Assembly (NCBI RefSeq): GCF_016592575.1
Contig: NZ_AP017470.1
Span: 868,001-932,000, forward strand
Length of the DNA stretch: 64,000 bases
Direction of reading: 5' to 3'
Origin: Thermotomaculum hydrothermale
GTDB taxonomy: Bacteria; Acidobacteriota; Holophagae; Thermotomaculales; Thermotomaculaceae
The translations under genes were made by a program, and so were the position numbers. This document shows positions 11,918 to 16,397 of this stretch, piece by piece (position 1 is the stretch's first letter; each line of letters begins with the position of its first letter). A model generated the notes under the pieces. That model had not been told where the DNA came from, made no database searches, and saw nothing but the letters and a program-made list of their open reading frames with translations.

Positions 11918-13142
11918 CGACTCAAAACCAATCAGAGATTTTATTTACAATGAGATTTCTTCTTTAGTTTGTAATAAATGTAAAATATTTCAAGCAGAAA
12001 ATGGCCTTGCAGGGATAAAGATTGCCGAGAAAGAAAAGCCTGACATTATTTTCATTGATGTTGTAATGCCTCTTTTAAATGGATATGCAACGGCAATTAG
12101 GCTAAAAAACATGGAAGGGCTGGAGAAATCGGTTTTAATAGCAATGACCTCTGAAACAGATACGGATGTTGAGAAAAAAATGCTCACAATTTGTCAGGAT
12201 TTTGTTTCAAAACCTATAAATAAATTAGCTTTAAAAAAGATTGTTAAAAAATACCTAAAACAAGAAAAACTTGATAAAAGAAATTCTGTGGATATTGACT
12301 CTTTTGACGCAATAACAAATGAGATTGTAATGGATTTGCAGGAAAAGGTTGAAGAGTTAACAAAATTAAACAAGGAATTGGAGCAGAAAAGCAGGACAAT
12401 TAACAGTCTTTATGTTGAGGCTGATAGGGCAAAGCTTAAATTAGAGGCTCTTATAAAATTTAGAGAAGATTTTCTTGATTTTATCTTTCACGAAATAAAA
12501 GGGCCATTGTCATCAATTTTAGGAAATTCTGAGATTCTTCAAATGAAATTTTTTGCTGAGTTAGGGTTTGAAGGTAACAAATTGTTAGACAATATTGTTA
12601 ATTCAAGTTTAAGAATTAAGAAATTAATGGATCAGGTAGCAAGGTTTAACAGTTTTGATTTTAATATAAAAGGCAAGAGGTTTATTATATTGTCAAAGGC
12701 AATTGATGAAGTGTTATTAAGGTATAATGAATTTATTAAAGAAAAGAGTTTAAAGGTTAGTTTTAACTGCCCTGAACCTATAAAGATAAAGATAAATAGA
12801 GAATTTTTGGTTGAAATCATTGACCCGATTATTAGAAATGCCATTATATTTAATAAAGAAAACGGTATGATAAATATTTTCTGTAGCAGAGAAGAGGGGT
12901 ATATTTTAATAGAAGTTGCAGATACTGGTATTGGTATGGATGACAAACAGCTTGAGCAGGCTTTTGTCCCTTTTGTTCAGTTTATTGATGTTGAACATTA
13001 CAAAACACATAGTTTGAAAGGGCTTGGATTAGGACTTGCAATGTGTAAGAAGCTTGTAGAAATGATAAATGGGGAACTGTCAATTGAAAGCAAAAAAGGT
13101 GAAGGAACAAAGGTTAAAATTTTGATTCCGGAGAGGGTATGA
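11895..13142 (+). CDS. Hybrid receiver-histidine kinase (REC-HisKA-HATPase), TTG start
   Basis: A soluble signalling protein of 415 residues with an N-terminal receiver (acidic pair in LIIDDSKP, phosphoacceptor Asp55 in IIFIDVVMP, conserved Lys in FVSKP), a coiled coil at about 148-185, a HisKA segment FIFHEIKGPLSSILG with His199, and a HATPase_c domain (EVADTGIGMD, GLGLGLAMCKKLVEMINGEL). It has no membrane span, so it acts downstream of another input, perhaps the kinase at 8.7 kb. The start appears to be TTG at 11895, seven bases after AGGGAG, overlapping tsaE by 23 bases. The next gene overlaps by 4 bases. Confidence 0.88.
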   Translation: MKSILIIDDSKPIRDFIYNEISSLVCNKCKIFQAENGLAGIKIAEKEKPDIIFIDVVMPLLNGYATAIRLKNMEGLEKSVLIAMTSETDTDVEKKMLTICQDFVSKPINKLALKKIVKKYLKQEKLDKRNSVDIDSFDAITNEIVMDLQEKVEELTKLNKELEQKSRTINSLYVEADRAKLKLEALIKFREDFLDFIFHEIKGPLSSILGNSEILQMKFFAELGFEGNKLLDNIVNSSLRIKKLMDQVARFNSFDFNIKGKRFIILSKAIDEVLLRYNEFIKEKSLKVSFNCPEPIKIKINREFLVEIIDPIIRNAIIFNKENGMINIFCSREEGYILIEVADTGIGMDDKQLEQAFVPFVQFIDVEHYKTHSLKGLGLGLAMCKKLVEMINGELSIESKKGEGTKVKILIPERV

Positions 13143-13885
13143 AAAAGAAGTTGTTAAATGCTATAAAAATTTACATTAAATATGCCTATCCAGAAGGGAA
13201 CATACCTGAAAGGATTAAAAAAATTGTTGAAGAAATTGAGAGATCAGAAAATAATCTCTTTACTCTTCCTTTTTTTGAGAAGGTTGATGCCAATGTTTTT
13301 GCTTTAAGATTGGGGAATATATTTTATCCTCACATGAAACTTGTGGTTAAAAACGAAGATGGGGAATTACTTTTTAATGTTGATACCCATGATTCTCCTG
13401 AGAGAATTCCGCCAACCCTTCCAGGCTATGAAAAGTTTAAAAAGGTAATTGAATTTAATAAAAATGTTAAAAAAAGGATTATGAATGAATTATACAATAA
13501 ATCAGGAATTACTGTTGAATCCAATGGCGATAACACAGTGGTCTTTCTTGACGATGAAGAGTTTATTCTTGATATTTTTAAAAACCTTTCCCAGTGTTTA
13601 GGAGTAAGGGCAAAAACATATAAAAATGGGAATAACCTGTTAAGAGACATTGAGCAATCAAAATTAAAACCATGTATTTGTTTTGTGGATATAATGATGC
13701 CTGAAATTAGCGGGTATGATTTTGTGAAAAAATTAAGGGAAAAGAAAATAAAAAAATTCCCTGTTGTTTTTACAACAGGGGTAAATCCCTCAAAATTAAA
13801 AAAAGATTTATGCGATGACTATTTGTTAAAGCCTGTATCTTTGAAAGATATTGAAAGCAAACTTAAAAAGTTTAAACTACTTTAA
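13139..13885 (+). CDS. Uncharacterised N-terminal domain fused to C-terminal receiver domain
   Basis: 248 residues. The C-terminal half (about 130-248) is a receiver: VVFLDDEEFI, phosphoacceptor Asp184 in CFVDIMMPEISGYDF, Thr in VVFTTG and Lys in YLLKPVSL. The first 115 residues form an unnamed domain with a conserved-looking core, ALRLGNIFYPHMKLVV followed by VDTHD and a Pro-rich turn; I recall similar stand-alone hypothetical proteins but cannot name the family. There is no DNA-binding output domain. It overlaps the hybrid kinase by 4 bases, so it is the likely phosphate partner. Its 3' end overlaps the convergent Ptb-like gene by 14 bases. Confidence 0.75.
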   Translation: MKKKLLNAIKIYIKYAYPEGNIPERIKKIVEEIERSENNLFTLPFFEKVDANVFALRLGNIFYPHMKLVVKNEDGELLFNVDTHDSPERIPPTLPGYEKFKKVIEFNKNVKKRIMNELYNKSGITVESNGDNTVVFLDDEEFILDIFKNLSQCLGVRAKTYKNGNNLLRDIEQSKLKPCICFVDIMMPEISGYDFVKKLREKKIKKFPVVFTTGVNPSKLKKDLCDDYLLKPVSLKDIESKLKKFKLL

Positions 13886-14471
13886 AAACCTCTTCCCCGT
13901 CAGTTAAAAAGATTTCTGTTTTTGCTTTCCCGCTGAAATCCAATCCGTCAACAATACCTCTTGCAATGCTTCCCCTATGGCACACAAGGGCATTTGCCTT
14001 CCCTGCAACATCAGTTAAAACTTTCTTTTCTTTTGCAGCCTTTTCCGAGAGGGCAACATCCATGGATAGAGGACCTTCAACAAAGACACCCTTTCCAAAC
14101 TGCCCCCTTTTCCCCATTGCTTCAACCACAGCGCCGTAAACAGATGATTCCATATTAAGGTTAACAAGTTCAACAGCAGACACAACTGCAACTTTAACCT
14201 CTTCAATCCCTGAAAACTTTGCAACTGCAATTGTATTTGATACAAGTTTTGGGAATTGCTTTAAAGATGGTTGAATATTAATGTAAGGGTCTGAAACAAA
14301 AAATGTTTTTCCATCAATTTCAATTTTGGCAACAGTTGAAAAAGTTTTTTTATACTCTTTTGATAATTCTTTAAAAAGATTTGCGATTTCAAGAGAAAAA
14401 TCTATTTTTAACTCTCTATTTTTTTCTATACCTGAATAAAAGTTTTCAAAAAACTCTCTTATACTATTCAT
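13872..14471 (-). CDS. Half-size phosphate acyltransferase (PTA/PTB)-like protein
   Basis: A 199-residue relative of phosphotransbutyrylase. From about residue 58 it follows the central part of the PTA_PTB fold: FFVSDPYINIQPSL, VAVVSAVELVNLNMESS, GKRGQFGKGVFVEGPLSMD and VAGKANALVC. It lacks the family's N-terminal CoA/phosphate region and the C-terminal TSRADS-type segment. The 282-residue Ptb just upstream has those parts but lacks the GPLSLD-type segment. The start codon overlaps the upstream stop (TAATG), so the two should be made in equal amounts. I infer a second subunit; a decayed duplicate is the alternative, but the frame is intact. Confidence 0.75.
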   Translation of the reverse strand: MNSIREFFENFYSGIEKNRELKIDFSLEIANLFKELSKEYKKTFSTVAKIEIDGKTFFVSDPYINIQPSLKQFPKLVSNTIAVAKFSGIEEVKVAVVSAVELVNLNMESSVYGAVVEAMGKRGQFGKGVFVEGPLSMDVALSEKAAKEKKVLTDVAGKANALVCHRGSIARGIVDGLDFSGKAKTEIFLTDGEEVFKVV

Positions 14472-15319
14472 TATTCCCCCCTGTTTGCAAAGATAGCCCC
14501 TAACGCAAGGGAAGCTGCTTTGTTTTTTTCAGTATCAGACCTTGAAACAAGGCAAATCGGTACCTTTGTTCCGGCGATAATTCCAGCAAAAACAGTATCG
14601 GTAAAAAGGGTAAAAGCCTTTGTAACAATGTTGCACTCTTCAATTGCATTAACAATTAAACCGTCGTGATTTTTGAAAGCTTCTCCTGGTTCAAGTGCTT
14701 TGTGAACAGTAACTTCTGGATACTTTTCCTTAATGGTTTCAATTATTTCTAAATTCTCTTCTTCAAAAAAATCTCTGTACGGTGATATAAAACCAAATGA
14801 GGGATTTTTTACTCCAAGGGAGAAGGCTACAGAGATTAAGTTTTCAATTATGGCTACCTTTTGTTCTTTATTCGGTTTTTCAACAATTCCCCCGTCTGTA
14901 TAGAAGAAAAGCCTGTCTCTTTTCGGAATGTCCAAAACTGCAACATGGGAGATAACATCCCTCTCTTTGAGGCTTTTTTCCTTAAATACAGCCTTTAAAA
15001 GGGTTGAGGTTTTAATAAATCCCTTCATTAAGAAATGGGCTTTTTTTTCTAAAATTAAATTTACGCATATTTTAGCCGCTTCTTTTTCATTATCTATGTC
15101 AATAATATTTAAGCCTGACAGAGAAAAATTTTGTTCTGAAGCAATTTCTTCCATTTCATTTTTATTCCCAACCAAGATTGCGTCAACAATTCCCTCCCTT
15201 ACGCTTTTCACAACAGCCTTAAGCACGCTACTTTCATTTGCCATTGCAACTGCAACTGTTTTGTTTCCCTTTTGTTTTTTTGCTGTTTCAATTAAAGAGT
15301 TGTAATTTTTTATAACCAT
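14471..15319 (-). CDS. ptb: Phosphate butyryltransferase-like protein
   Basis: Swaps CoA for phosphate on butyryl-CoA or branched acyl-CoA, giving the acyl phosphate used by Buk. 282 residues. The N-terminal half matches the family well (AVAMANESSVLKAVVKSV, DAILVGNK, HFLMKGFIKTSTLLKAVF, ISHVAVLDIPKRDRLFFYTDGGI), and the C-terminus has VPICLVSRSDTEKNKAAS. The middle is unusual: where other Ptb proteins have a GPLALDNA-like motif, this one has an unrelated stretch (about 195-235). That motif occurs instead in the coupled downstream gene. It is the second gene of a buk-ptb-ptb' unit, 10 bases after buk. Confidence 0.85.
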   Translation of the reverse strand: MVIKNYNSLIETAKKQKGNKTVAVAMANESSVLKAVVKSVREGIVDAILVGNKNEMEEIASEQNFSLSGLNIIDIDNEKEAAKICVNLILEKKAHFLMKGFIKTSTLLKAVFKEKSLKERDVISHVAVLDIPKRDRLFFYTDGGIVEKPNKEQKVAIIENLISVAFSLGVKNPSFGFISPYRDFFEEENLEIIETIKEKYPEVTVHKALEPGEAFKNHDGLIVNAIEECNIVTKAFTLFTDTVFAGIIAGTKVPICLVSRSDTEKNKAASLALGAIFANRGE

Positions 15320-15329
15320 TTTTATCTCC

Positions 15330-16397
15330 TTAACTATATTCCTTTATTTCAGTTTCTCCTTTTACAGCAAGAAAGGCTGCTTCTGCAAGTGCCTGCATTT
15401 CACCTTCGCCGGGATAAACCCTAATTTTTCCTAAAAAGGATATATACTCTTTTAAATCGGAAATAAATTTTTCAGAGTGTGCAATTCCGCCTGTAATTAA
15501 TATTGCTTCAAAATTACCCTTTAAGGCTGCAGCCTCTCTTCCAATCTCCTTTGCCACCTGAAAAACAAAGGTTCTGTAAATTAAATCAGCTTCTTTGTCT
15601 CCATTTTCAATTTTTTTCAAAACCTCTCTCAAATCTGCTGTACCTAAATACCCCTGAAATCCACTGTTTACAGAAAAGTCTTTTTCAATCTCCTCTTTGG
15701 ATTTTTCAGAAAAGCATAAATTAATTACTCCATTTAATGGAAGGGTGCCAGCCCTTGTTGGAGAAAATGGGCCTTCCCCCAATAAACCGTCGTTTACATC
15801 CCTTATCTTTCCCCCTTCAAGGGCGCATATTGATATTCCCCCGCCTATGTGGGCAACAACATAATTAACATCTTCAAGCTTTTTGTTTAAACTCTTTGCA
15901 TCCCTTCTTGCCGTTGCTTTAATGTTCAATGCGTGAGAGCGGCACTTTCTTACAATGCCAGGGAATCCTGAAACCCTGGATATATCCCAGAAATTGTCAA
16001 CTGTAACAGGGTCTGCTATAAAAGACGGTACATTGAATTCCTTTGCAAGTTTGTGAGCAATCATTGAACCTAAATTGCTTGCATGGTTTGAATACTTACA
16101 GGATTTTGCATCCTCAAGAATTTTATCATTAATTCTGTAAACTCCACCTTCCACCGGTTTTAACGGGCAGCCCCTTCCCATAACAGCCACAAGGTTATAC
16201 TTTTCTCTATCAAAGTTTTCAAGAAAGAATTTCTCCACCTCTTTGAACCTTAAATCAAACTGCTCTGAAACAAGTTTGAACTTTTTTAACTCTTCAAAAT
16301 CGTGGGATATATTTTCTTCCTTAATCGCGCCTTTTTCTGAAAAAATTGCAACCTTAGTTGAGGTTGAACCCGGGTTTATAACAAAAACAACATCCAT
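15330..16397 (-). CDS. buk: Butyrate kinase (branched-chain fatty-acid kinase)
   Basis: Transfers phosphate from butyryl phosphate to ADP, yielding ATP and the free acid. 355 residues, the usual length, of the acetate/sugar kinase fold: phosphate-1 motif FVINPGSTSTKVAIF at the N-terminus, then GRGCPLKPVEGG, HALNIKATARR, VVAHIGGGISICAL, and the adenosine segment ILITGGIAHS. It leads the minus-strand unit with the two Ptb-like genes. The unit recovers ATP from fatty acid or branched amino-acid breakdown. The true substrate (butyrate, isobutyrate or isovalerate) cannot be read from sequence. Confidence 0.94.
   Translation of the reverse strand: MDVVFVINPGSTSTKVAIFSEKGAIKEENISHDFEELKKFKLVSEQFDLRFKEVEKFFLENFDREKYNLVAVMGRGCPLKPVEGGVYRINDKILEDAKSCKYSNHASNLGSMIAHKLAKEFNVPSFIADPVTVDNFWDISRVSGFPGIVRKCRSHALNIKATARRDAKSLNKKLEDVNYVVAHIGGGISICALEGGKIRDVNDGLLGEGPFSPTRAGTLPLNGVINLCFSEKSKEEIEKDFSVNSGFQGYLGTADLREVLKKIENGDKEADLIYRTFVFQVAKEIGREAAALKGNFEAILITGGIAHSEKFISDLKEYISFLGKIRVYPGEGEMQALAEAAFLAVKGETEIKEYS

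Follow-up and report, generated by a model that had tools for sequence, protein, structure and literature searches.

Ptb and Pta enzymes occupy a central place in fermentation and in engineered pathways for butyrate and polyesters, and to our knowledge they are known as homomers. An ordinary phosphate butyryltransferase (Ptb) is the product of one gene and forms a homo-oligomer with two equal sites per dimer. The enzyme of C. acetobutylicum, CaPTB (PDB 7VG9; TIGR02706/PF01515), is an octamer of dimers. It consists of an N-terminal domain (residues 1-117 and 272-301) and a C-terminal domain (118-271), designated here as domains I and II, and its dimer is tied, among other contacts, by a salt bridge between Asp217 and Lys254 (PMC9706017).

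The active sites of PTA and PTB enzymes span the homodimer, the GPLxxD/Lys region being donated by the opposite subunit (PMC9706017, PMC7902834). For MtPTA, the CoA contacts as relayed in PMC9706017 comprise Ser128, Asn279, Tyr282, Lys283, Gln286, Thr298 and Cys312 from one subunit, and Gln244 and Lys257 from the other. In the PTA domain of MaeB, it is Gln683 that is supplied by the opposing monomer (PMC7902834). The numbering of these proteins agrees (Q244+35=N279 and Q683+35=N718), and in the MaeB alignment as printed, the glutamine belongs to the GxxQxD motif. K257 lies 11 residues past the Asp of this motif, as does K228 past D217 in CaPTB, as judged by aligning Ptb with the Pta of B. subtilis. 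Given the subunit contacts in MtPTA, CaPTB and MaeB and this matching spacing, the GPLxxD...K segment acts in trans. Each of the two sites of an ordinary homodimer draws domain I and the Asn/Lys helix from one chain and the GPLxxD/Lys segment from the other.

A different arrangement is encountered in a 64,000-nucleotide stretch of the Thermotomaculum hydrothermale genome (the window), where two neighboring genes, ptbA and ptbB, encode complementary halves of a Ptb. The locus resembles that of CaPTB in the fold of its products, in its linkage to buk and in the presence of all catalytic residues when chains A and B are counted together, and differs in being made up of two genes. It has the PTA fold in common with the PTA domain of MaeB, where, as predicted for the pair, the GxxQxD residue (Q683) comes from the opposing monomer; however, this domain is fused, homomeric and serves as a non-catalytic acetyl-CoA sensor. 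Pairs of a catalytic subunit and a dead paralog exist elsewhere, for example in trypanosomatid deoxyhypusine synthase and in the AdoMet decarboxylase prozyme. There, as proposed here, the activity of a homomer has come to depend on a non-catalytic paralog, but the proteins are unrelated, and chain B physically lacks the whole domain whose residues it would no longer supply.

The locus and its two chains

The three genes lie head to tail on the minus strand. The apparent operon is led by buk (15330..16397), encoding a butyrate kinase of 355 residues (430.6 bits with TIGR02707, cut-off 289.1), and ptbA (14471..15319; 282 residues) starts 10 nt downstream of it. The third gene, ptbB (13872..14471; 199 residues), is joined to ptbA by a TAATG (14469..14473) in which the ATG of ptbB and the TAA of ptbA have one base in common, an overlap consistent with translational coupling. 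The open reading frames, their order and lengths, the overlap and the position after buk are all as described in an earlier, sequence-only reading of this DNA. A convergent response-regulator gene on the plus strand (13139-13885) overlaps the 3' end of ptbB by 14 nt (13872-13885), and this tail-to-tail overlap recurs in two other loci (L002 and L003).

Both chains are significant members of the PTA_PTB superfamily (PF01515, cut-off 24 bits). For A, the match is fragmented (E=1.9e-20, 73.9 bits), with its best stretch at residues 10-89 on profile positions 7-84; for B (E=4.8e-16, 59.5 bits), residues 39-163 fall on positions 143-265 of 319. Alignment to the profile, which had been proposed as a check, establishes that A does not span all of the PTA_PTB active-site columns. 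With the Ptb model TIGR02706, A obtains 190.4 bits (residues 7-178 on columns 2-173, and a second stretch) and B 106.9 bits (columns 108-239), both below the cut-off of 410.5, so that neither alone is a Ptb by the equivalog rule. On a 301-column model built from full-length Ptbs, A covers columns 1-180 and 239-301 and B about 113-264, and this holds for 7/7 pairs, that is, the window and six relatives. The middle that is missing from A is exactly the part retained by B, which bears out the earlier claim that the GPLALD...VAG region was lost from the one chain and kept in the other. The chains do not simply tile, since columns about 113-180, the first half of domain II, are kept by both. In A, the NPKMPST...GPLALD...K...VAG segment of ordinary Ptbs is replaced by a stretch of about residues 180-212 (14684..14782, minus strand), where 58 model columns are absent and the edges depend on the alignment.

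Single-chain AlphaFold2 models, made with input alignments of 16 sequences, are confident, with a pLDDT of 91.5 and a pTM of 0.91 for A, and 93.5 and 0.90 for B. In Foldseek comparisons, A matches 7vg9_A along its entire chain (TM 0.90), both domains of the two-domain alpha/beta fold being predicted. B matches 7vg9 in domain II only (query TM 0.74-0.79 across about 160-190 columns). In CaPTB terms, A therefore corresponds to a full domain I, a domain II that keeps its first half but has other sequence in place of the second, and the C-terminal helix/SRSD segment, while B corresponds to domain II alone, with GPLSMD, K149 and VAGKA.

Residues were mapped to CaPTB numbers by spacing and alignment, and alignment to Ptbs places the motifs of both chains where the sequence-only reading had put them by eye. 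In A, N230 (N250 of CaPTB) to K234 (K254), encoded at 14618..14632 on the minus strand, make up a helix whose CaPTB counterpart bears own-chain contacts with CoA as well as the salt bridge of the dimer; these residues are invariant in 7/7 A chains. The catalytic segment S259-R260-S261-D262 (S279-R280-A281-D282 of CaPTB) is encoded at 14534..14545, minus strand. In B, GPLSMD extends from G133 to D138 (14058..14075, minus strand). Its fourth position corresponds to Q244 of MtPTA and Q683 of MaeB, donated in trans, and D138 to D217 of CaPTB, the partner of K254 on the other subunit in homodimers. B K149 (14025..14027, minus strand) is the equivalent of CaPTB K228 and MtPTA K257, the opposite-subunit contact with CoA. 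A thus possesses all own-chain residues (MKG, Asn250, Lys254, Ser279-Arg280 and Asp282) without D217 and K228, and B possesses the opposite-chain residues Asp217 and Lys228 without K97, N250, S279, R280 and D282. No single chain holds the full active-site set; A and B counted together do. K186, conserved in the alignment of the CaPTB paper, is missing from both chains and is variable among ordinary full-length Ptbs as well.

Conservation and origin of the pair

In the window's family, probably Thermotomaculaceae, the pair is intact in 7/7 genomes possessing it, all of them Acidobacteriota, distributed over two genera (the window and L039-L044), one genome being a single contig. In each of these, it is situated behind buk, with an A/B overlap of 1, 4 or 11 nt. 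Chance is not the explanation, seeing that seven genomes from two genera have this pair with identical parts missing. Absence or decay of B in the presence of A, envisaged beforehand as a sign against a joint function, was looked for in the seven genomes and never seen. B was not found in two incomplete drafts of the same genus; one of these was also searched for A, which yielded only an ordinary Ptb. Nine own-chain (cis) residues were scored, namely K97, G98, T102, S123, N250, K254, S279, R280 and D282 in CaPTB numbers. Chain A keeps 63/63 of these cells and B 11/63, and for the opposite-chain (trans) set the proportions are 1/35 and 35/35.

B is 41-44% identical between the genera and contains no internal stop codons. 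For pairs with usable dS, pairwise dN/dS amounts to 0.05-0.14 for A, 0.07-0.26 for B and 0.03-0.09 for buk, values that are rough because dS is partly saturated. Both chains are under purifying selection in this family. A search of 396 Acidobacteriota gave A-type scores (about 480-508 bits) in the window's family only; the next-best matches drop to 201 bits and are full-length Ptbs.

The search for the same neighbor pair next to buk, suggested by the sequence-only reading, located it in the window's family, in Zixibacteriota, usually behind buk, and in three further genomes. On one Zixibacteriota contig (L058), buk is followed by an A-like Ptb of full length that has E and R at D217 and K228, and then by a full-length B-like Ptb with VRG instead of MKG and Tyr at N250. 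Among 133 Zixibacteriota genomes, 82 have a Ptb match at 1e-30 or better, and about 65 of those reach 220 bits or more and so score as A-type; in many, another Ptb copy lies adjacent. About half of the Zixibacteriota thus have the A-B pair, both paralogs being full length. B immediately follows A in 43/43 testable loci, the contig of the 44th stopping just past A. In the first set, buk precedes A in 30/30 loci, and it is not found before A in six later ones (G447, G470, G471, G446, G448, G449). Five other Zixibacteriota genomes (G546, G547, G548, G551, G555) contain two Ptb genes about 1.1-1.6 kb apart, both scoring as ordinary Ptbs, and the gap perhaps holds a buk-sized gene.

In these full-length pairs (44 A and 43 B chains), a complementary division of residues is already under way. 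Own-chain residues are retained in 393/396 cells of A vs 209/368 of B, and opposite-chain residues in 166/218 cells of A vs 198/200 of B. S279-R280 is intact in 44/44 A chains vs 10/39 B chains, in which 20 different replacements occur; the many differing replacements point to repeated loss. For K228, on the other hand, 29/42 A chains have lost the residue and 40/40 B chains have it. The asymmetry is incomplete: D217 is still present in 37/44 A, 14 A chains have a conservative replacement of K228 by Arg, and some B chains retain most own-chain residues; such chains may therefore still homodimerise. A scan of 59 family-conserved columns, with no sites picked beforehand, gives a similar division. 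Columns 22, 47, 54, 92, 96, 97, 102, 116, 117, 123, 250, 277, 279, 280 and 294, kept in A and decayed in B, belong to domain I, the strand just after it (S123) and the N250 helix, while columns 172, 179, 181, 190, 205, 228 and 229, kept in B and decayed in A, all belong to domain II. The adjacent A-B pairs of three non-Zixibacteriota genomes (G578, G584, G678) lean likewise, with A lacking K228 and B lacking K97 and T102.

A tree of 72 rows unites the A chains from the two groups, the window's family and Zixibacteriota, in a single clade (SH-aLRT 99), and places their B chains together on one side of a branch with an SH-aLRT of 90, which is not decisive. A duplication inside the window's family, with its A and B mutually closest, is disfavoured (AU p 0.036). 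A single duplication behind all A and B chains is neither supported nor rejected (AU p 0.35). In view of these clades and AU results, the pair probably predates the window's lineage. It has probably passed from one group to the other, or to both from a common source, and the trimming to its present extreme probably took place in the window's family. As a less trimmed pair exists in another phylum, there looks to be an ancient two-part Ptb. The sequence-only reading was right in seeing complementary halves, but the idea that a single Ptb had been cut in two must be rejected, because the first half of domain II is present in both chains and full-length pairs exist. The best reading of the sequences is that two paralogs decayed along the own-subunit and opposite-subunit halves of a homodimer's composite active site.

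A putative heteromeric enzyme and its alternatives

Judging from the residues that each chain retains, ptbA and ptbB probably encode a Ptb that is an obligate hetero-oligomer, each A:B dimer having one complete composite site, and the window holds its most reduced form. Joined via domain II, the two chains would build one site from domain I and the helix of A together with D138 and K149 of B, and the second site would be absent, since A retains only the own-chain set and B only the opposite-chain set. The salt bridge between K254 and D217 would be possible once per dimer, namely between A K234 and B D138. The assembled enzyme would convert acyl-CoA and Pi reversibly into acyl-phosphate and CoA, and feed the adjacent butyrate kinase. 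The earlier proposal of a two-subunit enzyme in which each chain supplies the motifs lost by the other finds support in the complementary coverage and in the cis and trans residue sets. The properties that we infer for PtbA-PtbB are hetero-oligomerisation, a single site per dimer, catalytic activity and the substrate.

As to its origin, two Ptb genes co-translated behind buk would have specialised in complementary directions, with both chains still full length at the stage seen in Zixibacteriota, and with domain I gone from B and the unused half of domain II gone from A at the stage of the window's family. PtbA-PtbB is probably an undescribed, ancient heteromeric branch of the phosphate acyltransferases, in which a symmetric two-site homodimer has become a one-site asymmetric heterodimer, which is spread across about half of the Zixibacteriota, some non-Zixibacteriota genomes and a single family of Acidobacteriota, and of which the window pair is the endpoint, its second chain having shed the entire domain of a site no longer built. 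It looks like a two-part form of a common fermentation enzyme, undescribed in the literature searched; no account of such a two-gene Ptb was found in the open-licence literature on Ptb and Zixibacteria. Possibly, an independent early start of the same process is represented by an acidobacterial tandem (L092, 2674-4579, G423), which likewise consists of two adjacent full-length Ptbs and carries D217->F and D282->E in the second, but which falls outside the A and B clades in the tree.

A less likely alternative, and in our estimation an unlikely one, is that catalysis is performed by A by itself, as a monomer or homodimer, with B serving as a regulatory domain such as a CoA or acyl-CoA sensor. 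PTA domains are known to have turned into acyl-CoA sensors, as in MaeB (PMC7902834), and nearly all own-chain catalytic residues are gone from B; yet a MaeB-type sensor would require a d1:d2 cleft of its own, and domain I is absent from B. Moreover, A is devoid of the trans residues that full-length enzymes retain, and it is precisely these that are kept in B, in 35/35 cells of the window's family and 198/200 of Zixibacteriota. It is more improbable still that A and B make no acyl-phosphate at all, as a pseudoenzyme complex or with another ligand, the chemistry being left to an ordinary ptb-buk. The genome does possess a full-length ptb next to a second buk, as well as a pta by a malic enzyme, and both chains are far under the Ptb (TIGR02706) cut-off. 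However, there would be little reason for a complex without activity to keep S279-R280-D282 and MKG invariant; A holds the nine own-chain residues in 393/396 cells at the 44 Zixibacteriota loci and in 63/63 of the window's family, and buk remains adjacent to A in two phyla. Because B is shorter than ordinary family members and is without domain I, it might be taken for a duplicate in decay, or the split for an error of assembly or a frameshift artefact, but this can be dismissed on account of the identical structure in seven genomes of two genera, one of them single-contig, the lack of internal stops and a dN/dS (about 0.07-0.26) that is low despite partly saturated dS.

If PtbA-PtbB is a heteromeric enzyme, there would be a graded series from the homodimer over two full-length asymmetric paralogs to two truncated chains, in which the change from homomer to obligate heteromer could be tested and natural mutation would reveal which residues work in trans. 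It would also provide a ready-made split enzyme that requires both chains for activity. As for annotation, many genomes should then hold two adjacent 'phosphate butyryltransferase' genes of which neither is sufficient alone.

Metabolic context

The ordinary ptb of the window's genome is full length and is followed by the second buk (L031, 3536-5512; about 2,142.5-2,144.5 kb of G000). As an ordinary ptb-buk and a pta are also present in the genome, the A-B pair would therefore be an extra acyl-phosphate route. The pta gene directly follows, as a separate gene, one for a malic-enzyme-like protein of 458 residues (L032, 2497-4766), and its product finds its closest solved relatives in the PTA domains of hybrid malic enzymes. 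This pair looks like an unfused MaeB, and is perhaps another two-chain enzyme.

PtbA-PtbB might plausibly act on branched-chain, aromatic or butyryl acyl-CoAs. Two Zixibacteriota loci (L136, 3738-9042, and L137, 3400-8890) contain an iorA-iorB-buk-ptbA-ptbB operon, as named by eye from sequence, which begins with genes resembling those of indolepyruvate:ferredoxin oxidoreductase; this arrangement suggests acyl-CoAs from 2-oxoacid oxidation as the substrate there. Another Zixibacteriota pair adjoins genes that, likewise named by eye, resemble those for 3-hydroxyacyl-CoA dehydrogenase and enoyl-CoA hydratase.
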